In this document: in pieces, positions 1 through 39,585 of the stretch
Layout of the letters: each line of letters begins with the position of its first letter
Position numbering within the stretch: position 1 is the stretch's first letter
Source of the DNA: Xanthostigma xanthostigma
Lineage: Eukaryota > Arthropoda > Insecta > Raphidioptera > Raphidiidae
DNA length: 64,000 bases
NCBI GenBank assembly: GCA_963575645.1
Contig: OY754465.1
Coordinates: forward strand, 32,065,501 to 32,129,500
Direction: 5' to 3'
Position numbers and translations under genes: made by a program
Notes under the pieces: model-generated
Told to the model about the DNA's origin: nothing
Seen by the model: only the letters and a program-made list of their open reading frames with translations
The model's database searches: none

Positions 1-42
1 AGCATGTAAAAACTGCTTGTCTGCGTTTAAATAATGGTTAAT

Positions 43-55
43 ATGCAGTTTGCAT
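43..55. other. Conserved short dyad ATGCA-GTT-TGCAT in each monomer
   Basis: ATGCA and TGCAT are perfect reverse complements separated by GTT. This 13-bp element sits in the least variable part of the monomer and is retained in the great majority of copies across the window. Rare exceptions include GTGCAG forms (for example near 1688), one ATGGAG copy at about 17023, and the divergent monomers at 54908, 57355 and 62608. A five-base stem is too short for a stable cruciform, so if it has a role, recognition by a dimeric protein is the more plausible one. This is inference; no known binding motif such as the CENP-B box is present. Confidence 0.7.
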
Positions 56-122
56 TTTCTTATGAGAGAATGATCCAAACCTGAATGTTATAGTGTAAAT
101 AGACTTACCTTCAAAAAATAAA

Positions 123-132
123 GCAATTTTGC
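123..132. other. Second conserved dyad GCAA-TT-TTGC in each monomer
   Basis: GCAA and TTGC are inverted around TT in an otherwise variable neighbourhood, directly after the AATAAA that ends patch 2. Most monomers keep it. A change to GCAAATTTGC in the TTACAATGATAG lineage (for example near 8695 and 15950) makes a perfect ten-base palindrome rather than destroying symmetry. Retention may reflect homogenisation rather than selection. Confidence 0.5.
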
Positions 133-1606
133 CTATAAGGACTCATTTGCCCCTAATTGTCATAAAGCATGTAAAAACTGCTTGTATGCGTTAAAATAAT
201 AGTTAATATGCAGTTTGCATTTTCTTATGAGAGAATGATCCAAACCTGAATGTTATAGTGAAAATAGACTTACCTTTGTAAAATAAAGCAATTTTGCCTA
301 TAAGGACTCATTTGCACCTAATTGTCGTAAAGCATGTAAAAACTGCTTGTCTGCGTTTAAATAATGGTTAATATGCAGTTTGCATTTTCTTATGAGAGAA
401 TGATCCAAACCTGAATGTTATAGTGTAAATAGACTTACCTTCAAAAAATAAAGCAATTTTGCCTATAAGGACTCATTTGCCCCTAATTGTCATAAAGCAT
501 GTAAAAACTGCTTGTCTGCGTTAAAATAATGGTAATATGCAGTTTGCATTTTCTTATGAGAGAATGATCCAAACCTGAATGTTATAGTGTAAATAGACTT
601 ACCTTCATGATATAAAGCAATTTTGCCTATAAGGACTCATTTGCCCCTAATTGTCATAAAGCATGTAAAAACTGCTTGTTGCGTTAAAATAATGGTTAAT
701 ATGCAGTTTGCATTTTCTTATGAGAGAATGATCCAAACCTGAATATTACAGTGTAAATAGACTTACCTTCATGAAATAAAGCAATTTTGCCTATAAGGAC
801 TCATTTGGCCCTAATTGTCATAAAGCATGTAAAAACTGCTTGTATGCGTTAAAATAATGGTTAATATGCAGTTTGCATTTTCTTATAAGAGAATGATCTG
901 AACCTGAGTGTTATAGTTTAAGTAAACTTACCTTTGTAAAATAAAGCAATTTTGCCTATAAGGACTCATTTGCACCTAATTGTCGTAAAGCATGTAAAAA
1001 CTGCTTGTCTGCGTTAAAATAATGGTTAATATGCAGTTTGCATTTTCTTATGAGAGAATGATTCAAACCTGAATATAATAGTGTTAATAGTTATAACTTC
1101 ATGAAATAAAGCAATTTTGCCTATAATGACTCATTTGCCCCTAATTGTCATAAAGCATGTAAAAACTGCTCGTCTGCGTTAAAATAATGTTTAAAATGCA
1201 GTTTGCATTTTCTTATGAGAGAATGATCCAAACCTGAATGTTATAGTGAAAGTAGACTTACCTTTGTAAAATAAAACAATTTTGCCTTTAAGGACTTATT
1301 TGCACCTAATTGTCGTAAACCATGTAAAAACTGCTTGTCGGCGTTAAAATAATAGTTTATATGCAGTTTGCATTTTCTTATGAGAAAATAATCCAAACCT
1401 GAATGTTATAGTGTAAATAGACTTACCTTCATGAAATAAAGCAATTTTGCCTATAAGGACTCATTTGCCCCTAATTGTCATAAAGCATGTATAAACTGAT
1501 TGTCTGCGTTTAAATAGTGGTTAATATGCAGTTTGCATTTTCCTATGAGAGAATGATCCAAACCTGAATGTTATAGTGTAAATAGACTTACCTTCATAAA
1601 ATAAAG

Positions 1607-4600
1607 CAATTTTGCCTATAAGGACTCATTTGCCCCTAATTGTCATAAAGCATGTAAAAACTGCTTGTATGCTTTAAAATAATGGTTAATGTGCAGTTTG
1701 CATTTTCTTATGAGAGAATGATCCAAACCTGAATGTTATAGTGTAAATAGACTTACCTTTGTAAAATAAAGCAATTTTGCCTATAAGGACTCATTTGCAC
1801 GCAATTGTCGTGAAGCATGTAAAAACTGCTTGTCTTCGTGAAAATGATAGTAAATATGCAGTTTGCATTTTCTTATGAGAGAATGATCCAAACCTGAATG
1901 TTATGGTGTAAATAGACTTACCCTCATGAAATAAAGCAATTTTGCCTATAAAGACTCATTTGCACCTAATTGTCGTAAAGCATGTAAAAACTGCTTGTCT
2001 TCGTGAAAATGATAGTAAATATGCAGTTTGCATTTTCTTATGAGAGAATGATCCAAACCTGAATGTTATGGTGTAAATAGACTTACCTTCATGAAATAAA
2101 GCAATTTTGCCTATAAGGACTTATTTGGCCCTAATTGTCATAAAGCATGTAAAAACTGCTTGTATGCGTTAAAATAATGGTTAATATGCAGTTTGCATTT
2201 TCTTATGAGAGAATGATCCAAACCTGAATGTTATAGTGTAAATAGACTTACCTTCATGATCTAAAGCAATTTTGCCTATAAAGACTCATTTGCACCTAAT
2301 TGTCATAAAGCATGTAAAAACTGCTTGTATGCGTTAAAATGATAGTAAATATGCAGTTTGCATTTTCTTATGAGCGAATGATCCAAACCTGAATGTTATA
2401 GTGTAAATAGACTTACCCTCATAAAATAAAGCAATTTTGCTTATAAGGATCATTTGGCCCTAATTGTCATAAAGCATGTAAAAACTGCTTGTATGCGTTA
2501 AAATAATGGTTAATATGCAGTTTGCATTTTCTTATGAGAGAATGATCCAAACCTGAATGTTATAGTGTAAATAGACTTACCTTCATAAAATAAAGCAATT
2601 TTGCCTATAAGGACTTATTTGCACCTAATTGTCGTAAAGCATGTAAAAACTGCTTGTCTGCGTTTAAATAATGGTTAATATGCAGTTTGCATTTTCTTAT
2701 GAGAGAATGATCCAAACCTGAATGTTATAGTGTAAATAGACTTACCTTCATAAAATAAAGCAATTTTGCCTATAAGGACTCATTTGCCCCTAATTGTCAT
2801 AAAGCATGTAAAAACTGCTTGTATGCGTTAAAATAATGGTTAATATGCAGTTTGCATTTTCTTATGAGAGAATGATCCAAACCTGAATGTTATAGTGAAA
2901 ATAGACTTACCTTTGTAAAATAAAGCAATTTTGCCTATAAGGACTCATTTGCACTTAATTGTCGTAAAGCATGTAAAAACTGCTTGTCAGCGTTAAAATA
3001 ATGGTTAATATGCAGTTTGCATTTTCTTATGAGAGAATGATCCAAACCTGAATGTTATAGTCTAAATAGACTTACCCTCATGAAATAAAGCAATTTTGCC
3101 TATAAAGACTCATTTGCACCTAATTGTCAAAAAGCATGTAAAAACTGCTTGTATGCGTTAAAATAATGGTTAATATGCAGTTTGCATTTTCTTATGAGAG
3201 AATGATCCAAACCTGAATGTTATAGTGTAAATAGACTAACCCTCATGAAATAAAGCAATTTTGCCTATAAAGACTCATTTGCACCTAATTGTCGTAAAGC
3301 ATGTAAAAACTGATTGACTGCGTTTAAATAATGGTTAATATGCAGTTTGCATTTTCTTATGAGAGAATGATCCAAACCTGAATGTTATAGTGTAAATAGA
3401 CTTACCTTCATGAAATAAAGCAATTTTGCCTATAAGGACTCATTTGCCCCTAATTGTCATAAAGCATGTAAAAACTGCTTGTAGCGTTAAAATAATGGTT
3501 AATATGCAGTTTGCATTTTCTTATGAGAGAATGATCCAAACCTGAATATTACAGTGTAAATAGACTTACCTTCATGAAATAAAGCAATTTTGCCTATAAG
3601 GACTCATTTGGCCCTAATTGTCATAAAGCATGTAAAAACTGCTTGTATGCGTTAAAATAATGGTTAATATGCAGTTTGCATTTTCTTATGAGAGAATGAT
3701 CCAAACCTGAATGTTATAGTGTAAATAGACTTACCTTCATGATCTAAAGCAATTTTGCCTATAAAGACTCATTTGCACCTAATTGTCATAAAGCATGTAA
3801 AAACTGCTTGTATGCGTTAAAATGATAGTAAATATGCAGTTTGCATTTTCTTATGAGCGAATGATCCAAACCTGAATGTTATAGTGTAAATAGACTTACC
3901 CTCATGAAATAAAGCAATTTTGCTTATAAGGACTCATTTGGCCCTAATTGTCATAAAGCATGTAAAAACTGCTTGTATGCGTTAAAATAATGGTTAATAT
4001 GCAGTTTGCATTTTCTTATGAGAGAATGATCCAAACCTGAATGTTATAGTGTAAATAGACTTACCTTCATAAAATAAAGCAATTTTGCCTATAAGGACTA
4101 ATTTGCCTCTAATTGTCATAAAGCATGTAAAAACTGCTTGTATGCGTTAAAATAATGGTTAATATGCAGTTTGCATTCTCTTATGAGAGAATGATCCAAA
4201 CCTGAATGTTATAGTGTAAATAGACTTACCTTTGTAAAATAAAGCAATTTTGCCTATAAGGACTCATTTGCACGCAATTGTCGTGAAGCATGTAAAAACT
4301 GCTTGTCTGCGTGAAAATGATAGTAAATATGCAGTTTGCATTTTCTTATGAGAGAATGATCCAAACCTGAATGTTATAGTGTAAATAGACTTACCCTCAT
4401 GAAATAAAGCAATTTTGCCTATAAAGACTCATTTGCACCTAATTGTCGTAAAGAATGTAAAAACTGCTTGTCTGCGTTAAAATAATGGTTAATATGCAGT
4501 TTGCATTTTCTTATGAGAGAATGATCCAAACCTGAATGTTATAGTGTAAATAAACCTACCTTTGTAAAATAAAGCAATTTTGCCTATAAGGACTCATTTG

Positions 4601-6095
4601 CACGCAATTGTCGTGAAGCATGTAAAAATTGCTTGTCTGCGTTAAAATAATGGTTAATATGCAGTTTGCATTTTCTTATGAGAGAATGATCCAAACCTGA
4701 ATGTTATAGTGTAAATAGACTTACCTTCATGATATAAAGCAATTTTGCCTATAAGGACTCATTTGCCCCTAATTGTCATAAAGCATGTAAAAACTGCTTG
4801 TAGCGTTAAAATAATGGTTAATATGCAGTTTGCATTTTCTTACGAGAGAATGATCCAAACCTGAATATTATAGTGTAAATAGACTTACCTTCATGAAAAA
4901 AATCAATTTTGCCTATAAGGACTCATTTGGCCCTAATTGTCATAAAGCATGTAAAAACTGCTTGTATGCGTTAAAATAATGGTTAATATGCAGTTTGCAT
5001 TTTCTTATGAGAGAATGATCCAAACCTGAATGTTATAGTGTAAATAAACCTACCTTTGTAAAATAAAGCAATTTTGCCTATAAGGACTCATTTGAACGCA
5101 ATTGTCGTGAAGCATGTAAAATCTGCTTGTCTGCGTTAAAATAATGGTTAATATGCAGTTTGCATTTTCTTATGAGAGAATGAGCCCAACCTGAATGTTA
5201 TAGTGTAAATAGACTTACCTTCATGATATAAAGCAATTTTGCCTATAAGGACTCATTTGTCCCTAATTGTCATAAAGCATGTAAAAACTGCTTGTAGCGT
5301 TAAAATAATGGTTAATATGCAGTTTGCATTTTCTTACGAGAGAATGATCCAAACCTGAATATTATAGTGTAAATAGACTTACCTTCATGAAATAAAGCAA
5401 TTTTGCCTATAAAGACTCATATGCACCTAATTGTCATAAAGCATGTAAAAACTGCTTGAATGCGTTAAAATGATAGTAAATATGCAGTTTGCATTTTCTT
5501 ATGAGCGAATGATCCAAACCTGAATGTTATAGTGTAAATAGACTTACCCTCATGAAATAAAGCAATTTTGCTTATAAGGACTCATTTGCACCTAATTGTC
5601 ATAAAGCTTGTAAAAACTGCTTGTATGCGTTAAAATAATAGTTAATATGCAGTTTGCATTTTCTTATGAGAGAATGATCCAAACCTGAATGTTATAGTGA
5701 AAATAGACTTACCTTTTTAAAATAAAGCAATTTTGCCTATAAGGACTCATTTGCACCTAATTGTCGTAAAGCATGTAAAAACTGCTTGTCTGCGTTAAAA
5801 TAATGGTTAATATGCAGTTTGCATTTTCTTATGAGAGAATGATTCAAACCTAAAAGTTATAGTGTAAATAGACTTACCCTCATGAAATAAAGCAGTTTTG
5901 CCTATAAAGACTCATTTGCACCTAATTGTCGTAAAGCATGTAAAAACTGCTTGTCTGCGTTAAAATAATGGTTAATATGCAGTTTGCATTTTCTTATGAG
6001 AGAATGATCCAAACCTGAATGTTATAGTGTAAATAGACTTACCCTCATGAAATAAAGCAATTTTGCCTATAAAGACTCATTTGCACCTAATTGTC
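1607..6095 (+). repeat. 4.5-kb block duplicated within copy A (left copy)
   Basis: This block recurs at 17433-21921 with an offset of 15826 bp. Shared rare variants include GCTTTAAAAT at 1671 and 17497, TGATTGACTG at 3311 and 19137, and the GAAAAAAATC run at about 4894 and 20720. The flanking mismatches are A at 1606 against G at 17432 and G at 6096 against A at 21922. The offset is 96 monomers less 14 bp. The same block is present again in copy B from 23862. Confidence 0.9.
1798..1812. other. Haplotype with CACG...CGTG inverted arms (example)
   Basis: The monomer end CACGCAATTGTCGTG has four-base inverted arms. The alternative haplotype reads CACC...CGTA, so the changes on the two sides occur together in nearly every copy. 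The CACG/CGTG form nearly always follows GTGTAAATAG...TTTGTAAAAT, while GTGAAAATAG...TTTGTAAAAT is followed by CACC/CGTA. The linkage is visible throughout the array (for example 4271, 13011, 17614, 26524 and 40869). Confidence 0.6.
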
Positions 6096-9000
6096 GTAAA
6101 GCATGTATAAACTGCTTGTCTGCGTTTAAATAGTGGTTAATATGCAGTTTGCATTTTCTTATGAGAGAATGATCCAAACCTGAATGTTATAGTGTAAATA
6201 GACTTACCTTCATAAAATAAAGCAATTTTGCCTATAAGGACTCATTTGCCCCTAATTGTCATAAAGCATGTAAAAACTGCTTGTATGCGTTAAAATAATG
6301 GTTAATGTGCAGTTTGCATTTTCTTATGAGAGAATGATCCAAACCTAAATGTTATAGTGTAAATAGACTTACCTTTGTAAAATAAAGCAATTTTGCCTAT
6401 AAGGACTCATTTGCACGCAATTGTCGTGAAGCATGTAAAAACTGCTTGTCTTCGTGAAAATGATAGTAAATATGCAGTTTGCATTTTCTTATGAGAGAAT
6501 GATCCAAACCTGAATGTTATGGTGTAAATAGACTTACCCTCATGAAATAAAGCAATTTTGCCTATAAAGACTCATTTGCACCTAATTGTCGTAAAGCATG
6601 TAAAAACTGCTTGTCTGCGTTAAAATAATGGTTAATATGCAGTTTGCATTTTCTTATGAGAGAATGATCCAAACCTGAATGTTATAGTGTAAATAGACTT
6701 ACCCTCATGAAATAAAGCAATTTTGCTTATAAGGACTCATTTGCACCTAATTGTCATAAAGCTTGTAAAAACTGCTTGTATGCGTTAAAATAATAGTTAA
6801 TATGCAGTTTGCATTTTCTTATGAGAGAATGATCCAAACCTGAATGTTATAGTGTAAATAAACTCACCTTTGTAAAAAAAAGCAATTTTGTCTATAAGGA
6901 CTCATTTGCACGCAATTGTCGTGAAGCATGTAAAAACTGCTTGTCTGCGTTAAAATAATGGTTAATATGCAGTTTGCATTTTCTTATGAGAGAATGATCC
7001 AAACCTGAATGTATAGTGTAAATAGACTTACCTTCTTGATATAAAGCAATTTTGCCTATAAGGACTCATTTGCCCTTAATTGTCATAAAGCATGTAAAAA
7101 CTGCTTGTAGCGTTAAAATAATGGTTAATATGCAGTTTGCATTTTCTTATGAGAGAATGATCCAAACCTGAATATTATAGTGTAAATAGACTTACCTTCA
7201 TGAAATAAAGCAATTTTGCCTATAAGGACTTATTTGGCCCTAATTGTCATAAAGCATGTAAAAACTGCTTGTATGCGTTAAAATAATAGTTAATATGCAG
7301 TTTGCATTTTCTTATGAGAGAATGATCTAAACCTGAGTGTTATAGTTTAAGTAAACTTACCTTTGTAAAATAAAGCAATTTTGCCTATAAGGACTCATTT
7401 GCACCTAATTGTCGTAAAGCATGTAAAAACTGCTTGTCTGCGTTAAAATAATGGTTAATATGCAGTTTGCATTTTCTTATGAGAGAATGATCCAAACCTG
7501 AATATAATAGTGTAAATAGTTATAACTTCATGAAATAAAGCAATTTTGCCTATAATGACTCATTTGCCCCTAATTGTCATAAAGCATGTAAAAACTGCTT
7601 GTCTGCGTTAAAATAATGTTTAAAATGCAGTTTGCATTTTCTTATGAGAGAATGATCCAAACCTGAATGTTATAGTGTAAATAGACTTACCTTCATGAAA
7701 TAAAGCAATTTTGCCTATAAGGACTCATTTGCCCCTAATTGTCATAAAGCATGTAAAAACTGCTTGTATGCGTTAAAATAATGGTTAATATGCAGTTTGC
7801 ATTTTCTTATGAGAGAATGATCCAAACCTGAATGTTATAGTGTAAATAGACTTACCTTTGTAAAATAAAGCAATTTTGCCTATAAGGACTCATTAGCACG
7901 CAATTGTCGTGAAGCATGTAAAAACTGCTTGTCTGCGTGAAAATGATAGTAAATATGCAGTTTGCATTTTCTTATGAGAGAATGATCCAAACCTGAATGT
8001 TATAGTGTAAATAGACTTACCCTCATGAAATAAAGCAATTTTGCCTATAAAGACTCATTTGCACCTAATTGTCGTAAAGCATGTAAAAACTGCTTGTCTG
8101 CGTTAAAAAAATGGTTAATATGCAGTTTGCATTTTCTTATGAGAAAATGATCCAAACCTGAATGTTATAGTGTAAATAAACTTACCTGTGTAAAATAAAG
8201 CAATTTTGCCTATAAGGACTCATTTGCACGCAATTGTCGTGAAGCATGTAAAAACTGCTTGTCTGCGTTAAAATAATGGTTAATATGCAGTTTGCATTTT
8301 CTTATGAGAGAATGATCCAAACCTGAATGTTATAGTGTAAATAGACTTACCCTCATGATATAAAGCAATTTTGCCTATAAGGACTCATTTGCCCCTAATT
8401 GTCATAAAGCATGTAAAAACTGCTTGTATGCGTTAAAATAATGGTAATATGCAGTTTGCATTTTCTTATGAGAGAATGATCCAAACCTGAATGTTATAGT
8501 GTAAATAGATTTACCTTCATGAAATAAAGCAATTTTGCCTATAAAGACTCATTTGCACCTAATTGTCATAAAGCATGTAAAAACTGCTTGTATGCGTTAC
8601 AATGATAGTAAATATGCAGTTTGCATTTTCTTATGAGCGAATGATCCAAACCTGAATGTTATAGTGTAAATAGACTTACCCTCATGAAATAAAGCAAATT
8701 TGCTTATAAGGACTCATTTGCACCTAATTGTCATAAAGCTTGTAAAAACTGCTTGTATGCGTTAAAATAATAGTTAATATGCAGTTTGCATTTTCTTATG
8801 AGAGAATGATCCAAACCTAAATGTTATAGTGAAAATAGACTTACCTTTTTAAAATAAAGCAATTTTGCCTATAAGGACTCATTTGCACCTAATTGTCGTA
8901 AAGCATGTAAAAACTGCTTGTCTGCGTTAAAATAATGTTTAATATGCAGTTTGCATTTTCTTATGAGAGAATGATCCAAACCTAAATGTTAGAGTGTAAA

Positions 9001-9228
9001 TAGACTTACCTTTGTAAAATAAAGCAATTTTGCCTATAAGGACTCATTTGCGCGCAATTGTCGTGAAGCATGTAAAAACTGCTTGTCTGCGTGAAAATGA
9101 TAGTAAATATGCAGTTTGCATTTTCTTATGAAAGAATGATCCAAACCTGAATGTTATAGTGTAAATAGACTTACCCTCATGAAATAAAGCAATTTTGCCA
9201 ATAAAGACTCATTTGCACCTAATTGTCG

Positions 9229-12200
9229 TAAAGCATGTATAAACTGATTGTCTGCGTTTAAATAGTGGTTAATATGCAGTTTGCATTTTCTTATGAGAGA
9301 ATGATCCAAACCTGAATGTTATAGTGTAAATAGACTTACCTTCATAAAATAAAGCAATTTTGCCTATAAGGACTCATTTGCCCCTAATTGTCATAAAGCA
9401 TGTAAAATCTGCTTGTATGCGTTAAAATAATGGTTAATGTGCAGTTTGCATTTTCTTATGAGAGAATGATCCAAACCTGAATGTTATAGTGTAAATAGAC
9501 TTACCTTTGTAAAATAAAGCAATTTTGCCTATAAGGACTCATTTGCACGCAATTGTCGTGAAGCATGTAAAAACTGCTTGTTTTCGTGAAAATGATAGTA
9601 AATATGCAGTTTGCATTTTCTTATGAGAGAATGATCCAAACCTGAATGTTATGGTGTAAATAGACTTACCCTCATGAAATAAAGCAATTTTGCCTATAAA
9701 GACTCATTTGCACCTAATTGTCGTAAAGCATGTAAAAACTGCTTGTCTTCGTGAAAATGATAGTAAATATGCAGTTTGCATTTTCTTATGAGAGAATGAT
9801 CCAAACCTGAATGTTATGGTGTAAATAGACTTACCTTCATGAAATAAAGCAATTTTGCCTATAAGGACTTATTTGGCCCTAATTGTCATAAAGCATGTAA
9901 AAACTGCTTGTATGCGTTAAAATAATGGTTAATATGCAGTTTGCATTTTCTTATGAGAGAATGATCCAAACCTGAATGTTATAGTGTAAATAGACTTACC
10001 TTCATGATCTAAAGCAATTTTGCCTATAAAGACTCATTTGCACCTAATTGTCATAAAGCATGTAAAAACTGCTTGTATGCGTTAAAATGATAGTAAATAT
10101 GCAGTTTGCATTTTCTTATGAGCGAATGATCCAAACCTGAATGTTATAGTGTAAATAGACTTACCCTCATAAAATAAAGCAATTTTGCTTATAAGGACTC
10201 ATTTGGCCCTAATTGTCATAAAGCATGTAAAAACTGCTTGTATGCGTTAAAATAATGGTTAATATGCAGTTTGCATTTTCTTATGAGAGAATGATCCAAA
10301 CCTGAATGTTATAGTGTAAATAGACTTACCTTCATAAAATAAAGCAATTTTGCCTATAAGGACTCATTTGCACCTAATTGTCGTAAAGCATGTAAAAACT
10401 GCTTGTCTGCGTTTAAATAATGGTTAATATGCAGTTTGCATTTTCTTATGAGAGAATGATCCAAACCTGAATGTTATAGTGTAAATAGACTTACCTTCAT
10501 AAAATAAAGCAATTTTGCCTATAAGGACTCATTTGCCCCTAATTGTCATAAAGCATGTAAAAACTGCTTGTATGCGTTAAAATAATGGTTAATATGCAGT
10601 TTGCATTTTCTTATGAGAGAATGATCCAAACCTGAATGTTATAGTGAAAATAGACTTACCTTTGTAAAATAAAGCAATTTTGCCTATAAGGACTCATTTG
10701 CACTTAATTGTCGTGAAGCATGTAAAAACTGCTTGTCTGCGTTAAAATAATGGTTAATATGCAGTTTGCATTTTCTTATGAGAGAATGATCCAAACCTGA
10801 ATGTTATAGTGTAAATAGACTTACCCTCATGAAATAAAGCAATTTTGCCTATAAAGACTCATTTGCACCTAATTGTCGTAAAGAATGTAAAAACTGCTTG
10901 TCTGCGTTAAAATAATGGTTAATATGCAGTTTGCATTTTCTTATGACAGAATGATCCAAACCTGAATGTTATAGTGTAAATAAACCTACCTTTGTAAAAT
11001 AAAGCAATTTTGCCTATAAGGACTCATTTGCACGCAATTGTCGTGAAGCATGTAAAAATTGCTTGTCTGCGTTAAAATAATGGTTAATATGCAGTTTGCA
11101 TTTTCTTATGAGAGAATGATCCAAACCTGAATGTAATAGTGTAAATAGACTTACCTTCATGAAATAAAGCAATTTTGCCTATAAGGACTCATTTGCCCCT
11201 AATTGTCATAAAGCATGTAAAAACTGGTTGTATGCGTTAAAATAATAGTTAATATGCAGTTTGCATTTTCTTATGAGAGAATGATCCAAACCTGAATGTT
11301 ATAGTGAAAATAGACTTACCTTTGTAAAATAAAGCAATTTTGCCTATAAGGACTCATTTGCACTTAATTGTCGTAAAGCATGTAAAAACTGCTTGTCAGC
11401 GTTAAAATAATGGTTAATATGCAGTTTGCATTTTCTTATGAGAGAATGATCCAAACCTGAATGTTATAGTGTAAATAGACTTACCCTCATGAAATAAAGC
11501 AATTTTGCCTATAAAGACTCATTTGCACCTAATTGTCAAAAAGCATGTAAAAACTGCTTGTATGCGTTAAAATAATGGTTAATATGCAGTTTGCATTTTC
11601 TTATGAGAGAATGATCCAAACCTGAATGTTATAGTGTAAATAGACTAACCCTCATGAAATAAAGCAATTTTGCCTATAAAGACTCATTTGCACCTAATTG
11701 TCGTAAAGCATGTAAAAACTGATTGACTGCGTTTAAATAATGGTTAATATGCAGTTTGCATTTTCTTATGAGAGAATGATCCAAACCTGAATGTTATAGT
11801 GTAAATAGACTTACCTTCATGAAATAAAGCAATTTTGCCTATAAGGACTCATTTGCCCCTAATTGTCATAAAGCATGTAAAAACTGCTTGTAGCGTTAAA
11901 ATAATGGTTAATATGCAGTTTGCATTTTCTTATAAGAGAATGATCCAAACCTGAATATTACAGTGTAAATAGACTTACCTTCATGAAATAAAGCAATTTT
12001 GCCTCTAAGGACTCATTTGGCCCTAATTGTCATAAAGCATGTAAAAACTGCTTGTATGCGTTAAAATAATGGTTAATATGCAGTTTGCATTTTCTTATGA
12101 CAGAATGATCCAAACCTGAATGTTATAGTGTAAATAGACTTACCTTCATGATCTAAAGCAATTTTGCCTATAAAGACTCATTTGCACCTAATTGTCATAA

Positions 12201-16106: not shown

Positions 16107-16322
16107 AAAATAAAGCAATTTTGCCTATAAGGACTCATTTGCATCTAATTGTCGTAAAGCATGTAAAAACTGCTTGTCTGCGTTTAAATAATGGTTAATA
16201 TGCAGTTTGCATTTTCTTATGAGAGAATGATCCAAACCTGAATGTTATAGTGTAAATAGACTTACCTTCATAAAATAAAGCAATTTTGCCTATAAGGACT
16301 CATTTGCACGCAATTGTCGTGA

Positions 16323-22090: not shown

Positions 22091-22585
22091 AGCTTGTAAA
22101 AACTGCTTGTATGCGTTAAAATAATAGTTAATATGCAGTTTGCATTTTCTTATGAGAGAATGATCCAAACCTGAATGTTATAGTGAAAATAGACTTACCT
22201 TTGTAAAATAAAGCAATTTTGCCTATAAGGACTCATTTGCACCTAATTGTCGTAAAGCATGTAAAAACTGCTTGTCTGCGTTTAAATAATGGTTAATATG
22301 CAGTTTGCATTTTCTTATGAGAGAATGATCCAAACCTGAATGTTATAGTGTAAATAGACTTACCTTCAAAAAATAAAGCAATTTTGCCTATAAGGACTCA
22401 TTTGCCCCTAATTGTCATAAAGCATGTAAAAACTGCTTGTATGCGTTAAAATAATAGTTAATATGCAGTTTGCATTTTCTTATGAGAGAATGATCCAAAC
22501 CTGAATGTTATAGTGAAAATAGACTTACCTTTGTAAAATAAAGCAATTTTGCCTATAAGGACTCATTTGCACCTAATTGTCGTAA
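22091..22585 (+). repeat. Local three-monomer repeat at the copy A/B junction
   Basis: The monomers at 22091-22255 and 22421-22585 are of the same type (AATAGTT, GTGAAAATAG, TTTGTAAAAT, GCACC). They surround a TTCAAAAAAT monomer, and another TTCAAAAAAT monomer follows at 22586. The 330-bp dimer period also appears at 1-495. A dimer-scale exchange at the junction of the large copies would explain it. Confidence 0.65.
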
Positions 22586-25500: not shown

Positions 25501-28500
25501 TGAAATAAAGCAATTTTGCCTATAAAGACTCATTTGCACCTAATTGTCGTAAAGCATGTAAAAACTGATTGACTGCGTTTAAATAATGGTTAATATGCAG
25601 TTTGCATTTTCTTATGAGAGAATGATCCAAACCTGAATGTTATAGTGTAAATAGACTTACCTTCATGAAATAAAGCAATTTTGCCTATAAGGACTCATTT
25701 GCCCCTAATTGTCATAAAGCATGTAAAAACTGCTTGTAGCGTTAAAATAATGGTTAATATGCAGTTTGCATTTTCTTATGAGAGAATGATCCAAACCTGA
25801 ATATTACAGTGTAAATAGACTTACCTTCATGAAATAAAGCAATTTTGCCTATAAGGACTCATTTGGCCCTAATTGTCATAAAGCATGTAAAAACTGCTTG
25901 TATGCGTTAAAATAATGGTTAATATGCAGTTTGCATTTTCTTATGAGAGAATGATCCAAACCTGAATGTTATAGTGTAAATAGACTTACCTTCATGATCT
26001 AAAGCAATTTTGCCTATAAAGACTCATTTGCACCTAATTGTCATAAAGCATGTAAAAACTGCTTGTATGCGTTAAAATGATAGTAAATATGCAGTTTGCA
26101 TTTTCTTATGAGCGAATGATCCAAACCTGAATGTTATAGTGTAAATAGACTTACCCTCATGAAATAAAGCAATTTTGCTTATAAGGACTCATTTGGCCCT
26201 AATTGTCATAAAGCATGTAAAAACTGCTTGTATGCGTTAAAATAATGGTTAATATGCAGTTTGCATTTTCTTATGAGAGAATGATCCAAACCTGAATGTT
26301 ATAGTGTAAATAGACTTACCTTCATAAAATAAAGCAATTTTGCCTATAAGGACTAATTTGCCTCTAATTGTCATAAAGCATGTAAAAACTGCTTGTATGC
26401 GTTAAAATAATGGTTAATATGCAGTTTGCATTCTCTTATGAGAGAATGATCCAAACCTGAATGTTATAGTGTAAATAGACTTACCTTTGTAAAATAAAGC
26501 AATTTTGCCTATAAGGACTCATTTGCACGCAATTGTCGTGAAGCATGTAAAAACTGCTTGTCTGCGTGAAAATGATAGTAAATATGCAGTTTGCATTTTC
26601 TTATGAGAGAATGATCCAAACCTGAATGTTATAGTGTAAATAGACTTACCCTCATGAAATAAAGCAATTTTGCCTATAAAGACTCATTTGCACCTAATTG
26701 TCGTAAAGAATGTAAAAACTGCTTGTCTGCGTTAAAATAATGGTTAATATGCAGTTTGCATTTTCTTATGAGAGAATGATCCAAACCTGAATGTTATAGT
26801 GTAAATAAACCTACCTTTGTAAAATAAAGCAATTTTGCCTATAAGGACTCATTTGCACGCAATTGTCGTGAAGCATGTAAAAATTGCTTGTCTGCGTTAA
26901 AATAATGGTTAATATGCAGTTTGCATTTTCTTATGAGAGAATGATCCAAACCTGAATGTTATAGTGTAAATAGACTTACCTTCATGATATAAAGCAATTT
27001 TGCCTATAAGGACTCATTTGCCCCTAATTGTCATAAAGCATGTAAAAACTGCTTGTAGCGTTAAAATAATGGTTAATATGCAGTTTGCATTTTCTTACGA
27101 GAGAATGATCCAAACCTGAATATTATAGTGTAAATAGACTTACCTTCATGAAAAAAATCAATTTTGCCTATAAGGACTCATTTGGCCCTAATTGTCATAA
27201 AGCATGTAAAAACTGCTTGTATGCGTTAAAATAATGGTTAATATGCAGTTTGCATTTTCTTATGAGAGAATGATCCAAACCTGAATGTTATAGTGTAAAT
27301 AAACCTACCTTTGTAAAATAAAGCAATTTTGCCTATAAGGACTCATTTGAACGCAATTGTCGTGAAGCATGTAAAATCTGCTTGTCTGCGTTAAAATAAT
27401 GGTTAATATGCAGTTTGCATTTTCTTATGAGAGAATGATCCCAACCTGAATGTTATAGTGTAAATAGACTTACCTTCATGATATAAAGCAATTTTGCCTA
27501 TAAGGACTCATTTGTCCCTAATTGTCATAAAGCATGTAAAAACTGCTTGTAGCGTTAAAATAATGGTTAATATGCAGTTTGCATTTTCTTACGAGAGAAT
27601 GATCCAAACCTGAATATTATAGTGTAAATAGACTTACCTTCATGAAATAAAGCAATTTTGCCTATAAAGACTCATATGCACCTAATTGTCATAAAGCATG
27701 TAAAAACTGCTTGAATGCGTTAAAATGATAGTAAATATGCAGTTTGCATTTTCTTATGAGCGAATGATCCAAACCTGAATGTTATAGTGTAAATAGACTT
27801 ACCCTCATGAAATAAAGCAATTTTGCTTATAAGGACTCATTTGCACCTAATTGTCATAAAGCTTGTAAAAACTGCTTGTATGCGTTAAAATAATAGTTAA
27901 TATGCAGTTTGCATTTTCTTATGAGAGAATGATCCAAACCTGAATGTTATAGTGAAAATAGACTTACCTTTTTAAAATAAAGCAATTTTGCCTATAAGGA
28001 CTCATTTGCACCTAATTGTCGTAAAGCATGTAAAAACTGCTTGTCTGCGTTAAAATAATGGTTAATATGCAGTTTGCATTTTCTTATGAGAGAATGATTC
28101 AAACCTAAAAGTTATAGTGTAAATAGACTTACCCTCATGAAATAAAGCAGTTTTGCCTATAAAGACTCATTTGCACCTAATTGTCGTAAAGCATGTAAAA
28201 ACTGCTTGTCTGCGTTAAAATAATGGTTAATATGCAGTTTGCATTTTCTTATGAGAGAATGATCCAAACCTGAATGTTATAGTGTAAATAGACTTACCCT
28301 CATGAAATAAAGCAATTTTGCCTATAAAGACTCATTTGCACCTAATTGTCGTAAAGCATGTATAAACTGCTTGTCTGCGTTTAAATAGTGGTTAATATGC
28401 AGTTTGCATTTTCTTATGAGAGAATGATCCAAACCTGAATGTTATAGTGTAAATAGACTTACCTTCATAAAATAAAGCAATTTTGCCTATAAGGACTCAT

Positions 28501-31500
28501 TTGCCCCTAATTGTCATAAAGCATGTAAAAACTGCTTGTATGCGTTAAAATAATGGTTAATGTGCAGTTTGCATTTTCTTATGAGAGAATGATCCAAACC
28601 TAAATGTTATAGTGTAAATAGACTTACCTTTGTAAAATAAAGCAATTTTGCCTATAAGGACTCATTTGCACGCAATTGTCGTGAAGCATGTAAAAACTGC
28701 TTGTCTTCGTGAAAATGATAGTAAATATGCAGTTTGCATTTTCTTATGAGAGAATGATCCAAACCTGAATGTTATGGTGTAAATAGACTTACCCTCATGA
28801 AATAAAGCAATTTTGCCTATAAAGACTCATTTGCACCTAATTGTCGTAAAGCATGTAAAAACTGCTTGTCTGCGTTAAAATAATGGTTAATATGCAGTTT
28901 GCATTTTCTTATGAGAGAATGATCCAAACCTGAATGTTATAGTGTAAATAGACTTACCCTCATGAAATAAAGCAATTTTGCTTATAAGGACTCATTTGCA
29001 CCTAATTGTCATAAAGCTTGTAAAAACTGCTTGTATGCGTTAAAATAATAGTTAATATGCAGTTTGCATTTTCTTATGAGAGAATGATCCAAACCTGAAT
29101 GTTATAGTGTAAATAAACTCACCTTTGTAAAAAAAAGCAATTTTGTCTATAAGGACTCATTTGCACGCAATTGTCGTGAAGCATGTAAAAACTGCTTGTC
29201 TGCGTTAAAATAATGGTTAATATGCAGTTTGCATTTTCTTATGAGAGAATGATCCAAACCTGAATGTATAGTGTAAATAGACTTACCTTCTTGATATAAA
29301 GCAATTTTGCCTATAAGGACTCATTTGCCCTTAATTGTCATAAAGCATGTAAAAACTGCTTGTAGCGTTAAAATAATGGTTAATATGCAGTTTGCATTTT
29401 CTTATGAGAGAATGATCCAAACCTGAATATTATAGTGTAAATAGACTTACCTTCATGAAATAAAGCAATTTTGCCTATAAGGACTTATTTGGCCCTAATT
29501 GTCATAAAGCATGTAAAAACTGCTTGTATGCGTTAAAATAATAGTTAATATGCAGTTTGCATTTTCTTATGAGAGAATGATCTAAACCTGAGTGTTATAG
29601 TTTAAGTAAACTTACCTTTGTAAAATAAAGCAATTTTGCCTATAAGGACTCATTTGCACCTAATTGTCGTAAAGCATGTAAAAACTGCTTGTCTGCGTTA
29701 AAATAATGGTTAATATGCAGTTTGCATTTTCTTATGAGAGAATGATCCAAACCTGAATATAATAGTGTAAATAGTTATAACTTCATGAAATAAAGCAATT
29801 TTGCCTATAATGACTCATTTGCCCCTAATTGTCATAAAGCATGTAAAAACTGCTTGTCTGCGTTAAAATAATGTTTAAAATGCAGTTTGCATTTTCTTAT
29901 GAGAGAATGATCCAAACCTGAATGTTATAGTGTAAATAGACTTACCTTCATGAAATAAAGCAATTTTGCCTATAAGGACTCATTTGCCCCTAATTGTCAT
30001 AAAGCATGTAAAAACTGCTTGTATGCGTTAAAATAATGGTTAATATGCAGTTTGCATTTTCTTATGAGAGAATGATCCAAACCTGAATGTTATAGTGTAA
30101 ATAGACTTACCTTTGTAAAATAAAGCAATTTTGCCTATAAGGACTCATTAGCACGCAATTGTCGTGAAGCATGTAAAAACTGCTTGTCTGCGTGAAAATG
30201 ATAGTAAATATGCAGTTTGCATTTTCTTATGAGAGAATGATCCAAACCTGAATGTTATAGTGTAAATAGACTTACCCTCATGAAATAAAGCAATTTTGCC
30301 TATAAAGACTCATTTGCACCTAATTGTCGTAAAGCATGTAAAAACTGCTTGTCTGCGTTAAAAAAATGGTTAATATGCAGTTTGCATTTTCTTATGAGAA
30401 AATGATCCAAACCTGAATGTTATAGTGTAAATAAACTTACCTGTGTAAAATAAAGCAATTTTGCCTATAAGGACTCATTTGCACGCAATTGTCGTGAAGC
30501 ATGTAAAAACTGCTTGTCTGCGTTAAAATAATGGTTAATATGCAGTTTGCATTTTCTTATGAGAGAATGATCCAAACCTGAATGTTATAGTGTAAATAGA
30601 CTTACCCTCATGATATAAAGCAATTTTGCCTATAAGGACTCATTTGCCCCTAATTGTCATAAAGCATGTAAAAACTGCTTGTATGCGTTAAAATAATGGT
30701 AATATGCAGTTTGCATTTTCTTATGAGAGAATGATCCAAACCTGAATGTTATAGTGTAAATAGATTTACCTTCATGAAATAAAGCAATTTTGCCTATAAA
30801 GACTCATTTGCACCTAATTGTCATAAAGCATGTAAAAACTGCTTGTATGCGTTACAATGATAGTAAATATGCAGTTTGCATTTTCTTATGAGCGAATGAT
30901 CCAAACCTGAATGTTATAGTGTAAATAGACTTACCCTCATGAAATAAAGCAAATTTGCTTATAAGGACTCATTTGCACCTAATTGTCATAAAGCTTGTAA
31001 AAACTGCTTGTATGCGTTAAAATAATAGTTAATATGCAGTTTGCATTTTCTTATGAGAGAATGATCCAAACCTAAATGTTATAGTGAAAATAGACTTACC
31101 TTTTTAAAATAAAGCAATTTTGCCTATAAGGACTCATTTGCACCTAATTGTCGTAAAGCATGTAAAAACTGCTTGTCTGCGTTAAAATAATGTTTAATAT
31201 GCAGTTTGCATTTTCTTATGAGAGAATGATCCAAACCTAAATGTTAGAGTGTAAATAGACTTACCTTTGTAAAATAAAGCAATTTTGCCTATAAGGACTC
31301 ATTTGCGCGCAATTGTCGTGAAGCATGTAAAAACTGCTTGTCTGCGTGAAAATGATAGTAAATATGCAGTTTGCATTTTCTTATGAAAGAATGATCCAAA
31401 CCTGAATGTTATAGTGTAAATAGACTTACCCTCATGAAATAAAGCAATTTTGCCAATAAAGACTCATTTGCACCTAATTGTCGTAAAGCATGTATAAACT

Positions 31501-34500
31501 GATTGTCTGCGTTTAAATAGTGGTTAATATGCAGTTTGCATTTTCTTATGAGAGAATGATCCAAACCTGAATGTTATAGTGTAAATAGACTTACCTTCAT
31601 AAAATAAAGCAATTTTGCCTATAAGGACTCATTTGCCCCTAATTGTCATAAAGCATGTAAAATCTGCTTGTATGCGTTAAAATAATGGTTAATGTGCAGT
31701 TTGCATTTTCTTATGAGAGAATGATCCAAACCTGAATGTTATAGTGTAAATAGACTTACCTTTGTAAAATAAAGCAATTTTGCCTATAAGGACTCATTTG
31801 CACGCAATTGTCGTGAAGCATGTAAAAACTGCTTGTTTTCGTGAAAATGATAGTAAATATGCAGTTTGCATTTTCTTATGAGAGAATGATCCAAACCTGA
31901 ATGTTATGGTGTAAATAGACTTACCCTCATGAAATAAAGCAATTTTGCCTATAAAGACTCATTTGCACCTAATTGTCGTAAAGCATGTAAAAACTGCTTG
32001 TCTTCGTGAAAATGATAGTAAATATGCAGTTTGCATTTTCTTATGAGAGAATGATCCAAACCTGAATGTTATGGTGTAAATAGACTTACCTTCATGAAAT
32101 AAAGCAATTTTGCCTATAAGGACTTATTTGGCCCTAATTGTCATAAAGCATGTAAAAACTGCTTGTATGCGTTAAAATAATGGTTAATATGCAGTTTGCA
32201 TTTTCTTATGAGAGAATGATCCAAACCTGAATGTTATAGTGTAAATAGACTTACCTTCATGATCTAAAGCAATTTTGCCTATAAAGACTCATTTGCACCT
32301 AATTGTCATAAAGCATGTAAAAACTGCTTGTATGCGTTAAAATGATAGTAAATATGCAGTTTGCATTTTCTTATGAGCGAATGATCCAAACCTGAATGTT
32401 ATAGTGTAAATAGACTTACCCTCATAAAATAAAGCAATTTTGCTTATAAGGACTCATTTGGCCCTAATTGTCATAAAGCATGTAAAAACTGCTTGTATGC
32501 GTTAAAATAATGGTTAATATGCAGTTTGCATTTTCTTATGAGAGAATGATCCAAACCTGAATGTTATAGTGTAAATAGACTTACCTTCATAAAATAAAGC
32601 AATTTTGCCTATAAGGACTCATTTGCACCTAATTGTCGTAAAGCATGTAAAAACTGCTTGTCTGCGTTTAAATAATGGTTAATATGCAGTTTGCATTTTC
32701 TTATGAGAGAATGATCCAAACCTGAATGTTATAGTGTAAATAGACTTACCTTCATAAAATAAAGCAATTTTGCCTATAAGGACTCATTTGCCCCTAATTG
32801 TCATAAAGCATGTAAAAACTGCTTGTATGCGTTAAAATAATGGTTAATATGCAGTTTGCATTTTCTTATGAGAGAATGATCCAAACCTGAATGTTATAGT
32901 GAAAATAGACTTACCTTTGTAAAATAAAGCAATTTTGCCTATAAGGACTCATTTGCACTTAATTGTCGTGAAGCATGTAAAAACTGCTTGTCTGCGTTAA
33001 AATAATGGTTAATATGCAGTTTGCATTTTCTTATGAGAGAATGATCCAAACCTGAATGTTATAGTGTAAATAGACTTACCCTCATGAAATAAAGCAATTT
33101 TGCCTATAAAGACTCATTTGCACCTAATTGTCGTAAAGAATGTAAAAACTGCTTGTCTGCGTTAAAATAATGGTTAATATGCAGTTTGCATTTTCTTATG
33201 ACAGAATGATCCAAACCTGAATGTTATAGTGTAAATAAACCTACCTTTGTAAAATAAAGCAATTTTGCCTATAAGGACTCATTTGCACGCAATTGTCGTG
33301 AAGCATGTAAAAATTGCTTGTCTGCGTTAAAATAATGGTTAATATGCAGTTTGCATTTTCTTATGAGAGAATGATCCAAACCTGAATGTAATAGTGTAAA
33401 TAGACTTACCTTCATGAAATAATGCAATTTTGCCTATAAGGACTCATTTGCCCCTAATTGTCATAAAGCATGTAAAAACTGGTTGTATGCGTTAAAATAA
33501 TAGTTAATATGCAGTTTGCATTTTCTTATGAGAGAATGATCCAAACCTGAATGTTATAGTGAAAATAGACTTACCTTTGTAAAATAAAGCAATTTTGCCT
33601 ATAAGGACTCATTTGCACTTAATTGTCGTAAAGCATGTAAAAACTGCTTGTCAGCGTTAAAATAATGGTTAATATGCAGTTTGCATTTTCTTATGAGAGA
33701 ATGATCCAAACCTGAATGTTATAGTGTAAATAGACTTACCCTCATGAAATAAAGCAATTTTGCCTATAAAGACTCATTTGCACCTAATTGTCAAAAAGCA
33801 TGTAAAAACTGCTTGTATGCGTTAAAATAATGGTTAATATGCAGTTTGCATTTTCTTATGAGAGAATGATCCAAACCTGAATGTTATAGTGTAAATAGAC
33901 TAACCCTCATGAAATAAAGCAATTTTGCCTATAAAGACTCATTTGCACCTAATTGTCGTAAAGCATGTAAAAACTGATTGACTGCGTTTAAATAATGGTT
34001 AATATGCAGTTTGCATTTTCTTATGAGAGAATGATCCAAACCTGAATGTTATAGTGTAAATAGACTTACCTTCATGAAATAAAGCAATTTTGCCTATAAG
34101 GACTCATTTGCCCCTAATTGTCATAAAGCATGTAAAAACTGCTTGTAGCGTTAAAATAATGGTTAATATGCAGTTTGCATTTTCTTATAAGAGAATGATC
34201 CAAACCTGAATATTACAGTGTAAATAGACTTACCTTCATGAAATAAAGCAATTTTGCCTCTAAGGACTCATTTGGCCCTAATTGTCATAAAGCATGTAAA
34301 AACTGCTTGTATGCGTTAAAATAATGGTTAATATGCAGTTTGCATTTTCTTATGACAGAATGATCCAAACCTGAATGTTATAGTGTAAATAGACTTACCT
34401 TCATGATCTAAAGCAATTTTGCCTATAAAGACTCATTTGCACCTAATTGTCATAAAGCATGTAAAAACTGCTTGTATGCGTTAAAATGATAGTAAATATG

Positions 34501-37500
34501 CAGTTTGCATTTTCTTATGAGCGAATGATCCAAACCTGAATGTTATAGTGTAAATAGACCTACCCTCATGAAATAAAGCAATTTTGCTTATAAGGACTCA
34601 TTTGGCCCTAATTGTCATAAAGCATGTAAAAACTGCTTGTATGCGTTAAAATAATGGTTAATATGCAGTTTGCATTTTCTTATGAGAGAATGATCCATAC
34701 CTGAATGTTATAGTGTAAATAGACTTACCTTCATGAAATAAAGCAATTTTGCCTATAAGGACTCATTTGCCCCTAATTGTCATAAAGCATGTAAAAACTG
34801 CTTGTAGCGTTAAAATAATGGTTAATATGCAGTTTGCATTTTCTTATGAGAGAATGATCCAAACCTGAATGTTATAGTGAAAATAGACTAACCTTTGTAA
34901 AATAAAGCAATTTTGCCTATAAGGACTCATTTGCACCTAATTGTCGTAAAGCATGTAATAACTGCTTGTCTGCGTTTAAATAATGGTTAATATGCAGTTT
35001 GCATTTTCTTATGAGAGAATGATCCAAACCTGAATGTTATAGTGTAAATAGACTTACCTTCATAAAATAAAGCAATTTTGCCTATAAGGACTCATTTGCC
35101 CCTAATTGTCATAAAGCTTGTAAAAACTGCTTGTATGCGTTAAAATAATGGTTAATATGCAGTTTGCATTCTCTTATGAGAGAATGATCCAAACCTGAAT
35201 GTTATAGTGTAAATAGACTTACCTTTGTAAAATAAAGCAATTTTGCCTATAAGGACTCATTTGCACGCAATTGTCGTGAAGCATGTAAAAACTGCTTGTC
35301 TGCGTGAAAATGATAGTAAATATGCAGTTTGCATTTTCATATGAGAGAATGATCCAAACCTGAATGTTATAGTGTAAATAGACTTACCCTCATGAAATAA
35401 AGCAATTTTGCCTATAAAGACTCATTTGCACCTAATTGTCGTAAAGCATGTAAAAACTGCTTGTCTGCGTTAAAATAATGGTTAATATGCAGTTTGCATT
35501 TTCTTATGAGAGAATGATCCAAACCTGAATGTTATAGTGTAAATAGACTTACCTTCATAAAATAAAGCAATTTTGCCTATAAGGACTAATTTGCCTCTAA
35601 TTGTCATAAAGCATGTAAAAACTGCTTGTATGCGTTAAAATAATGGTTAATATGCAGTTTGCATTCTCTTATGAGAGAATGATCCAAACCTGAATGTTAT
35701 AGTGTAAATAGACTTACCCTCATGAAATAAAGCAATTTTGCCTATAAAGACTCATTTGCACCTAATTGTCGTAAAGCATGTATAAACTGCTTGTCTGCGT
35801 TTAAATAGTGGTTAATATGCAGTTTGCATTTTCTTATGAGAGAATGATCCAAACCTGAATGTTATAGTGTAAATAGACTTACCTTCATAAAATAAAGCAA
35901 TTTTGCCTATAAGGACTCATTTGCCCCTAATTGTCATAAAGCATGTAAAAACTGCTTGTATGCGTTAAAATAATGGTTAATGTGCAGTTTGCATTTTCTT
36001 ATGAGAGAATGATCCAAACCTGAATGTTATAGTGTAAATAGACTTACCTTTGTAAAATAAAGCAATTTTGCCTATAAGGACTCATTTGCACGCAATTGTC
36101 GTGAAGCATGTAAAAACTGCTTGTCTTCGTGAAAATGATAGTAAATATGCAGTTTGCATTTTCTTATGAGAGAATGATCCAAACCTGAATGTTATGGTGT
36201 AAATAGACTTACCCTCATGAAATAAAGCAATTTTGCCTATAAAGACTCATTTGCACCTAATTGTCGTAAAGCATGTAAAAACTGCTTGTCTGCGTTAAAA
36301 TAATGGTTAATATGCAGTTTGCATTTTCTTATGAGAGAATGATCCAAACCTGAATGTTATAGTGTAAATAAACTCACCTTTGTAAAATAAAGCAATTTTG
36401 TCTATAAGGACTCATTTGCACGCAATTGTCGTGAAGCATGTAAAAACTGCTTGTCTGCGTTAAAATAATGGTTAATATGCAGTTTACATTTTCTTATGAG
36501 AGAATGATCCAAACCTGAATGTTATAGTGTAAATAGACTTACCTTCATGATATAAAGCAATTTTGCCTATAAGGACTCATTTGCCCTTAATTGTCATAAA
36601 GCATGTAAAAACTGCTTGTAGCGTTAAAATAATGGTTAATATGCAGTTTGCATTTTCTTATGAGAGAATGATCCAAACCTGAATATTATAGTGTAAATAG
36701 ACTTACCTTCATGAAATAAAGCAATTTTGCCTATAAGGACTTATTTGGCCCTAATTGTCATAAAGCATGTAAAAACTGCTTGTATGCGTTAAAATAATAG
36801 TTAATATGCAGTTTGCATTTTCTTATGAGAGAATGATCTAAACCTGAGTGTTATAGTTTAAGTAAACTTACCTTTGTAAAATAAAGCAATTTTGCCTATA
36901 AGGACTCATTTGCACCTAATTGTCGTAAAGCATGTAAAAACTGCTTGTCTGCGTTAAAATAATGGTTAATATGCAGTTTGCATTTTCTTATGAGAGAATG
37001 ATCCAAACCTGAATATAATAGTGTAAATAGTTATAACTTCATGAAATAAAGCAATTTTGCCTATAATGACTCATTTGCCCCTAATTGTCATAAAGCATGT
37101 AAAAACTGCTTGTCTGCGTTAAAATAATGTTTAAAATGCAGTTTGCATTTTCTTATGAGAGAATGATCCAAACCTGAATGTTATAGTGTAAATAGATTTA
37201 CCTTCATGAAATAAAGCAATTTTGCCTATAAGGACTCATTTGCCCCTAATTGTCATAAAGCATGTAAAAACTGCTTGTATGCGTTAAAATAATGGTTTAT
37301 ATGCAGTTTGCATTTTCTTATGAGAGAATGATCCAAACCTGAATGTTATAGTGTAAATAGACTTACCTTTGTAAAATAAAGCAATTTTGCCTATAAGGAC
37401 TCATTAGCACGCAATTGTCGTGAAGCATGTAAAAACTGCTTGTCTGCGTGAAAATGATAGTAAATATGCAGTTTGCATTTTCTTATGAGAGAATGATCCA

Positions 37501-39585
37501 AACCTGAATGTTATAGTGTAAATAGACTTACCCTCATGAAATAAAGCAATTTTGCCTATAAAGACTCATTTGCACCTAATTGTCGTAAAGCATGTAAAAA
37601 CTGCTTGTCTGCGTTAAAAAAATGGTTAATATGCAGTTTGCATTTTCTTATGAGAGAATGATCCAAACCTGAATGTTATAGTGTAAATAAACTTACCTGT
37701 GTAAAATAAAGCAATTTTGCCTATAAGGACTCATTTGCACGCAATTGTCGAGAAGCATGTAAAAACTGCTTGTCTGCGTTAAAATAATGGTTAATATGCA
37801 GTTTGCATTTTCTTATGAGAGAATGATCCAAACCTGAATGTTATAGTGTAAATAGACTTACCCTCATGATATAAAGCAATTTTGCCTATAAGGACTCATT
37901 TGCCCCTAATTGTCATAAAGCATGTAAAAACTGCTTGTATGCGTTAAAATAATGGTAATATGCAGTTTGCATTTTCTTATGAGAGAATGATCTAAACCTG
38001 AATGTTATAGTGTAAATAGATTTACCTTCATGAAATAAAGCAATTTTGCCTATAAAGACTCATTTGCACCTAATTGTCATAAAGCATGTAAAAACTGCTT
38101 GTATGCGTTACAATGATAGTAAATATGCAGTTTGCATTTTCTTATGAGCGAATGATCCAAACCTGAATGTTATAGTGTAAATAGACTTACCCTCATGAAA
38201 TAAAGCAAATTTGCTTATAAGGACTCATTTGCACCTAATTGTCATAAAGCTTGTAAAAACTGATTGTATGCGTTAAAATAACAGTTAATATGCAGTTTGC
38301 ATTTTCTTATGAGAGAATGATCCAAACCTGAATGTTATAGTGAAAATAGACTTACCTTTGTAAAATAAAGCAATTTTGCCTATAAGGACTCATTTGCATC
38401 TAATTGTCGTAAAGCATGTAAAAACTGCTTGTCTGCGTTTAAATAATGGTTAATATGCAGTTTGCATTTTCTTATGAGAGAATGATCCAAACCTGAATGT
38501 TATAGTGTAAATAGACTTACCTTCATAAAATAAAGCAATTTTGCCTATAAGGACTCATTTGCACGCAATTGTCGTGAAGCATGTAAAAACTGCTTGTCTG
38601 CGTTAAAATAATGGTTAATATGCAGTTTGCATTTTCTTATGAGAGAATGATCCAAACCTGAATGTTATAGTGTAAATAGACTTACCTTCATGATATAAAG
38701 CAATTTTGCCTATAAGGACTCATTTGCCCCAAATTGTCATTAAGCATGTAAAAACTGCTTGTAGCGTTAAAATAATGGTTAATATGCAGTTTGCATTTTC
38801 TTATGAGAAAATGATCCAAACCTGAATATTATAGTGTAAATAGACTTACCTTTATGAAATAAAGCAATTTTGCCTATAAGGACTCATTTGGCCCTAATTG
38901 TCATAAAGCATGTAAAAACTGCTTGTATGCGTTAAAATAATGGTTAATATGCAGTTTGCATTTTCTTATGAGAGAATGATCCAAACCTGAATGTTATAGT
39001 GTAAATAGACTTACCTTCATGAAATAAAGCAATTTTGCCTATAAAGACTCATTTGCACCTAATTGTCATAAAGCATGTAAAAACTGCTTGTATGCGTTAC
39101 AATGATAGTAAATATGGAGTTTGCATTTTCTTATGAGAAAATGATCCAAACCTGAATATTATAGTGTAAATAGACTGACCTTTATGAAATAAAGCAATTT
39201 TGCCTATAAGGACTCATTTGCCCCAAATTGTCATTAAGCATGTAAAAACTGCTTGTAGCGTTAAAATAATGGTTAATATGCAGTTTGCATTTTCTTATGA
39301 GAAAATGATCCAAACCTGAATATTATAGTGTAAATAGACTTACCTTTATGAAATAAAGCAATTTTGCCTATAAGGACTCATTTGCACGCAATTGTCGTGA
39401 AGCATGTAAAAACTGCTTGTCTGCGTTAAAATAATGGTTAATATGCAGTTTGCATTTTCTTATGAGAGAATGATCCAAACCTGAATGTTATAGTGTAAAT
39501 AGACTTACCTTCATGAAATAAAGCAATTTTGCCTATAAGGACTCATTTGCCCCTAATTGTCATAAAGCATGTAAAAACTGCTTGT
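22256..39585 (+). repeat. Very large higher-order repeat, copy B (partial)
   Basis: This near-identical copy of bases 1-17495 runs at offset 22255 up to about 38.9 kb and at offset 22091 afterwards, after loss of one 164-bp monomer. I noticed only a few base differences, such as T at 27439 against G at 5184 and T at 33423 against A at 11168. The match ends at about 39585, where TGTAGCG replaces the TGTATGCTT found at 17495. The duplication is therefore young, or kept uniform by exchange. An assembly artefact cannot be excluded from sequence alone, but the scattered differences argue against a simple duplicated contig. Confidence 0.9.
38578..39400 (+). repeat. Same cluster in copy B, one monomer shorter
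   Basis: Monomer starts are 38578, 38743, 38907, 39072 and 39237. The monomer at 38907 begins like the third monomer of the copy A cluster (TTCATGA) and ends like the fourth (TATAAAGACTC...GCACC). The result is an in-phase fusion, and the offset to copy A drops from 22255 to 22091, a loss of 164 bp. The join is inside patch 2. Confidence 0.85.

Follow-up and report, generated by a model that had tools for sequence, protein, structure and literature searches.

Evidence for a recent 22-23 kb tandem duplication, nested within an older one, in a 165-bp satellite array of Xanthostigma xanthostigma

In a satellite array of Xanthostigma xanthostigma (Raphidioptera, Raphidiidae), a block of 22-23 kb comprising 134-140 monomers has probably been copied once and recently, head to tail. 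The best explanation, which we hold with good confidence, is a single tandem duplication by misaligned homologous recombination that took place within an older duplication of 90-98 kb. The window, that is, the whole stretch of 64,000 nucleotides under analysis, corresponds to C2:32065501-32129500 (C2 being contig OY754465.1) in an assembly of 623.3 Mb and 28 contigs, which include 13 contigs of 18-84 Mb among the 21 whose length was seen. Around the window, the sequence C2:31865501-32169500 (304 kb) was analysed.

The whole window (1..64000) consists of one 165-bp satellite in 387.4 copies with 90% matches; with a single monomer repeated head to tail throughout, it is a satellite DNA array. 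Genome-wide, a 32-mer of the satellite has 85,673 exact matches (44,628 forward and 41,045 reverse, compared with 0 for the backward control). Among the matches listed, arrays lie at about 40-62% along contigs C1, C2, C4, C8 and C11, which are five of the 13 large contigs, and isolated exact 32-mers also occur at C1:6.9 and 19.4 Mb. This mid-contig position makes the satellite a candidate that may be centromeric. In the insect, beetle and satellite-array literature, a search by title listed no title on this satellite.

The features of the inner duplication, with window positions unless C2 is named, are the following:

C2:32059847-32082924, plus strand: copy 1, whole, 23,078 bp, its first 5,654 bp lying left of the window
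1..17424, plus strand: part of copy 1 in the window, with lags of 22,255 and 22,091 (the lag of 23,078 applies left of the window)
17425..39515 (C2:32082925-32105015), plus strand: copy 2, 22,091 bp
17425..17495, plus strand: exchange interval where copy 1 meets copy 2, 71 identical bp
16768..16931 (approximate limits), plus strand: extra 164-bp monomer in copy 1, recognised from the lag shift and an older relative
5184, plus strand: the copies differ by a substitution, and copy 1 has the derived base as judged by the older relative
11168, plus strand: the copies differ by a substitution, and copy 2 has the derived base as judged by the older relative

Along the pair, the lag passes from 23,078 through 22,255 to 22,091, with the last shift near window 16768-16927, because copy 1 has 823 bp (5 monomers) and 164 bp (1 monomer) more than copy 2. 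At lag 23,078, where the repeat reaches 5.65 kb left of base 1, the match left of the window is exact over 5,638 bp. At lag 22,255 there are 2 mismatches in 16,817 bp, window 1-16767 being equal to 22256-39022 apart from positions 5184 and 11168, and at lag 22,091 window 16928-17495 and 39019-39586 are identical over 568 bp. The realignment at one exact offset over more than 16 kb, which a preliminary description of this DNA had reported, is therefore confirmed, and the count of differences that it had proposed, now carried out, gives these 2 mismatches in window 1-16767. Over the entire pair, divergence amounts to 2 mismatches in 22,989 compared bases (0.09 per kb, about 0.01%, the two indels being left out), and the longest exact match between the copies is 5,983 bp. 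Within the unit, the monomers differ by 6.56% on average, with 95 distinct ones among 140. In the window, 99 monomers match at lag 135, and identical monomers at a single lag form runs of up to 35; in 100 order shuffles of the 384 window monomers, the maxima were 8 matches at a lag and a run of 2.

The copies abut at C2:32,082,925 without a spacer, and the same 71 bp, in the same monomer phase, are found where copy 1 starts, where the two copies meet and where copy 2 ends, the identity of copy 2 to copy 1 continuing to window 39586. A 116-mer across this inner junction has one exact occurrence in the 304 kb analysed and one in the whole 623-Mb assembly, both counts covering exact matches. The inner duplication can be recognised by a junction sequence that is found once in the assembly, and the 116-mer offers a ready marker for the frequency with which the block is gained or lost between individuals.

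The preliminary description had interpreted the common offset as a higher-order repeat with a 22255-bp period of 135 monomers, an interpretation that we reject. A canonical higher-order repeat is a unit repeated many times in tandem at a constant period, with monomers about 20-40% apart within the unit and unit copies less than 5% apart (PMC11276891, in excerpt); here, two abutting copies share a single exact junction, the period takes the values 23,078, 22,255 and 22,091, and copies about 0.01% apart are built of monomers only 6.56% apart. That the window shows two of many copies of a true 135-monomer unit is hardly credible. Such a unit would account for the two copies in register across 135 monomers and for the four exact places of window 1-1000 on C2, of which two fall within the duplicated pair and two to its left, at 32,045,229 and 31,955,033. 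These latter places, however, belong to short exact pieces of 1,541 bp (lag 20,272) and 1,876 bp (lag 42,527) at other spacings, the sequence right of copy 2 follows an older 98-kb relative, and the table of segments of at least 14 monomers contains no pairing between copy 1 and the 23 kb on its left side. At lag 23,078, raw identity left of copy 1 is 0.27-0.30 in eight of ten 165-bp steps and 0.66 and 0.94 in the two steps nearest copy 1, the low values mostly reflecting lost monomer register, and the monomer table was relied on instead. A third copy left of base 1, which the preliminary description had suggested looking for, does not adjoin the pair; short exact pieces recur there, together with an older relative in the left superblock. 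Outside the 304 kb, this search covered the places of window 1-1000, the junction 116-mer and a 1.5-kb unit probe. One offset shared by two copies does not in itself make a higher-order repeat.

The inner pair lies within a larger tandem pair:

C2:31952014-32042209: left copy of the outer tandem pair, 90,196 bp
about C2:32042210-32140302, plus strand: right copy of the outer tandem pair, 98,092 bp, containing the whole window 1..64000

The outer pair is collinear only in pieces. Its junction shares 35 bp and its topology is as in the inner duplication, so that abutting copies with homology at start, junction and end, as homologous exchange would leave them, are found twice (71 bp inner, 35 bp outer). 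The assembly contains two exact occurrences, separated by 98,092 bp, of a 66-mer that covers the left junction of a 1.6-kb insert. A 136-mer over the outer junction failed as a unique marker, as it is also found at C1:43309354. Mismatches between the outer copies amount to 0.33-1.23 per kb in seven of eight chains, compared with 0.09 for the inner pair; these chains were selected from long exact matches and so favour the more similar parts, and one left-hand stretch belongs to two of the eight. The eighth chain (SB5) has 25.75 per kb, a value that is probably due to a one-base shift, with 0.3-0.7 per kb there in the monomer-aligned table. In the same table, other stretches of the outer pair reach 3.25-3.4 per kb, and this uneven divergence shows that the outer pair does not have a single age and has undergone later local changes or conversion. 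The outer duplication is older than the inner one, because the divergence of the inner pair is much smaller. The proposal of the preliminary description that blocks of the array were amplified segmentally, and not by unit-by-unit turnover, is supported by these nested duplications of 22-23 kb and 90-98 kb and their clear boundaries.

For a 92-monomer stretch of the unit, the left superblock contains an older relative (C2:31,987,009-32,002,378), 80-102 kb to the left, which gives the two substitutions their polarity. At the start of the extra monomer it sides with copy 2, up to where the relative itself departs. Compared with each copy, it has 22 differences over 92 monomers, an equality that is nearly forced because the copies differ at just two sites. 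The relative is rearranged: about 11 kb of other satellite separates it from the sequence that corresponds to the start of the unit. Furthermore, the first part of the unit is present twice in the left superblock (lag 17,967, 2.43 differences per kb), and so are the last 22 monomers of the unit's relative (lag 3,936, 1 difference); the left superblock thus holds no clean single-copy state of the unit. A gap of 200 N at C2:31,989,201 falls inside the older relative, 76 kb left of the window. The lags of the relatives on either side of it, 79,975 and 79,775, differ by exactly 200, which indicates that probably no sequence is missing at the gap.

Two further histories could produce the inner pair. 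In the first, an assembly artefact joined two haplotypes, or a repeat-graph loop, end to end, as the very high identity of the copies and the assembly gap in this array, 76 kb away, might suggest. We consider this unlikely, since no N lies between copy 1 and copy 2, the copies are separated by indels of 5 and 1 monomers, and the junction has the form of a clean recombinant that keeps the monomer register. Usual HiFi reads are, moreover, longer than the longest exact match of 5,983 bp, and neighbouring differences would be bridgeable if such reads were used; both copies are presumably present in the animal. In the other, reverse history, two older 22-kb copies existed, one of which was lost or rearranged in the left superblock, and the surviving pair was homogenised by recent gene conversion. 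The left superblock is indeed rearranged exactly at the unit, with parts of the unit repeated and no clean single copy as the left-hand relative, and divergence along the outer pair is uneven. This history nevertheless needs more events, including a conversion over 22 kb that must leave just two mismatches, and is very unlikely.

For the preferred reading of a single recent tandem duplication, the boundary identity shared in register suggests that misaligned monomers underwent homologous recombination. A tandem duplication would result if two monomers displaced by about 140 units recombined, whether by an unequal exchange, involving sister chromatids or homologues, or by break-induced replication restarting in a wrong monomer. 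The latter has been suggested for human arrays by the requirement for RAD52 and PIF1 (PMC11034957, in excerpt), and the two routes are indistinguishable here. When the phases of breakpoints within the monomer were compared with variant positions, right ends gave p 0.72 (76 of 77 clusters used) and left ends showed a mild deviation, mainly in one bin (p 0.023, 85 of 89 clusters used). A preferred exchange site within the monomer accordingly finds no clear support; breakpoints broadly follow the variant positions in the monomer, and homologous exchange therefore fits better than a site-specific process. With an insect mutation rate of 2.9e-9 per site and generation, the inner event would date back roughly 15,000 generations (Poisson range about 1,800-54,000); for the outer event, at 1 mismatch per kb, the figure would be roughly 170,000. 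Both are rough estimates that ignore conversion and sequencing error.

Block repeats are not confined to these two pairs, and two further ones lie in the window:

50974-54000 versus 58508-61534, plus strand: block repeat at lag 7,534, 5 mismatches
55781-57214 versus 57731-59164, plus strand: block repeat at lag 1,950, exact

Among the matches listed, the 1.5-kb unit probe is found at 99-100% identity in at least 13 places (C2:31.88-32.10 Mb), with seven of their 12 spacings falling at 6.4-8.4 kb. These spacings indicate that the 22-kb unit itself holds three related blocks, 6.4-8.4 kb (39-51 monomers) apart. Across C2:31865501-32169500, 158 near-identical segments of at least 10 monomers cover 93% of the 1,625 monomers, and strict runs of at least 6 monomers number 218, compared with 0 in each of three shuffles. 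Taken as one joint proposal, towards which we remain somewhat doubtful, the satellite may grow chiefly by the doubling of very large blocks near the array edge and not by short-unit turnover; the doublings may have followed the order of about 7 kb, then 90-98 kb, then 22 kb, the array keeping a nested history in which mobile inserts serve as markers.

Some observations concern individual elements of the array. Short monomers of 135 bp (30 bp missing) occur in pairs at window 56024-56293 and 57974-58243, spaced 1,950 bp. A 1.7-kb insert, with an internal tandem repeat seen by eye, is present at C2:31880797 and 31898466, 17,669 bp apart, and both inserts sit at an identical satellite junction, that is, at another block duplication marked by an insert. 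Among the matches listed, hit starts outside the analysed 304 kb (n=52) include four pairs with a spacing of 8,571 bp around 31.43 Mb on C2, which hint at more blocks there. A position-barcode test for block duplication on C1, again among the matches listed, proved not specific.

Comparable events are described in the excerpted sources cited here. In maize centromere 10, an adjacent segmental duplication of 22.7 kb dates to about 121,000 years, adjacent duplications of CentC monomers occur too (10 monomers in the youngest), and one monomer was lost by homologous recombination (PMC4806543, in excerpt). The maize block resembles the present one in being recent, adjacent and of nearly equal size, in lying, for its part, in a centromeric repeat region, and in having the same nucleotides at start, junction and end. 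It consists, however, of retrotransposons and a genomic repeat, whereas the block here is pure satellite, and its join of 5 nt is read as alternative end joining, in contrast to the 71 bp in register described above (PMC4806543, in excerpt). Alpha-satellite higher-order repeats likewise have many-monomer blocks that follow each other head to tail and differ very little from copy to copy, and the orangutan 59mer is called the longest of those in primates. It has eight tandem copies with monomers 22.4% apart within the unit, compared with two copies, monomers 6.56% apart and a changing period here (PMC11276891, in excerpt). Variable-copy segmental duplications in the X heterochromatin of Drosophila melanogaster are similarly large, and are ascribed to unequal exchanges and likened to larger-scale higher-order repeats; that case, however, concerns an R1-rich region beside rDNA and not a simple satellite (PMC12400953, in excerpt). 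The event in X. xanthostigma looks like a known, ordinary way for satellite arrays to grow, with unusually clear breakpoints, and it provides a base-resolved example of array expansion with two nested duplications, located breakpoints and two polarised substitutions.

Further observations concern the ends of arrays and contigs. The C2 array has its right end near 32,145,420, beyond which lies what looks, by eye, like a non-LTR element. Among the matches listed, the satellite on C2 is on the minus strand at 29.5-30.5 Mb and on the plus strand from 31.285 Mb, and switches between 30514505 and 31285205; long inverted symmetries described in satellite arrays of Tribolium madens (PMC13081366, in excerpt) are a possible parallel. 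The 204-kb contig C15 begins inside the 165-bp satellite, so that part of the arrays seems to be unplaced on the large contigs. A 17.7-kb contig has a COX1 match and, upstream of it on the same strand, what resembles ND2 by eye, a gene order that suggests an arthropod, perhaps an insect. An exact 22-base repeat of the TTAGG type has no match in the assembly. Among 20 contig starts read over their first 110 bases (C2 not being one of them), nine are without a tandem repeat, C12 starts with a different repeat unit, and ten (C1, C3-C6, C8-C10, C13 and C24) carry T-rich tandem repeats of about 20 bp, CCCTTTTTTGGGCCGTTTTTT and an AGCTCC variant. A literature search with a 17-base piece of this T-rich repeat found nothing, and the repeats may be unusual telomere repeats.
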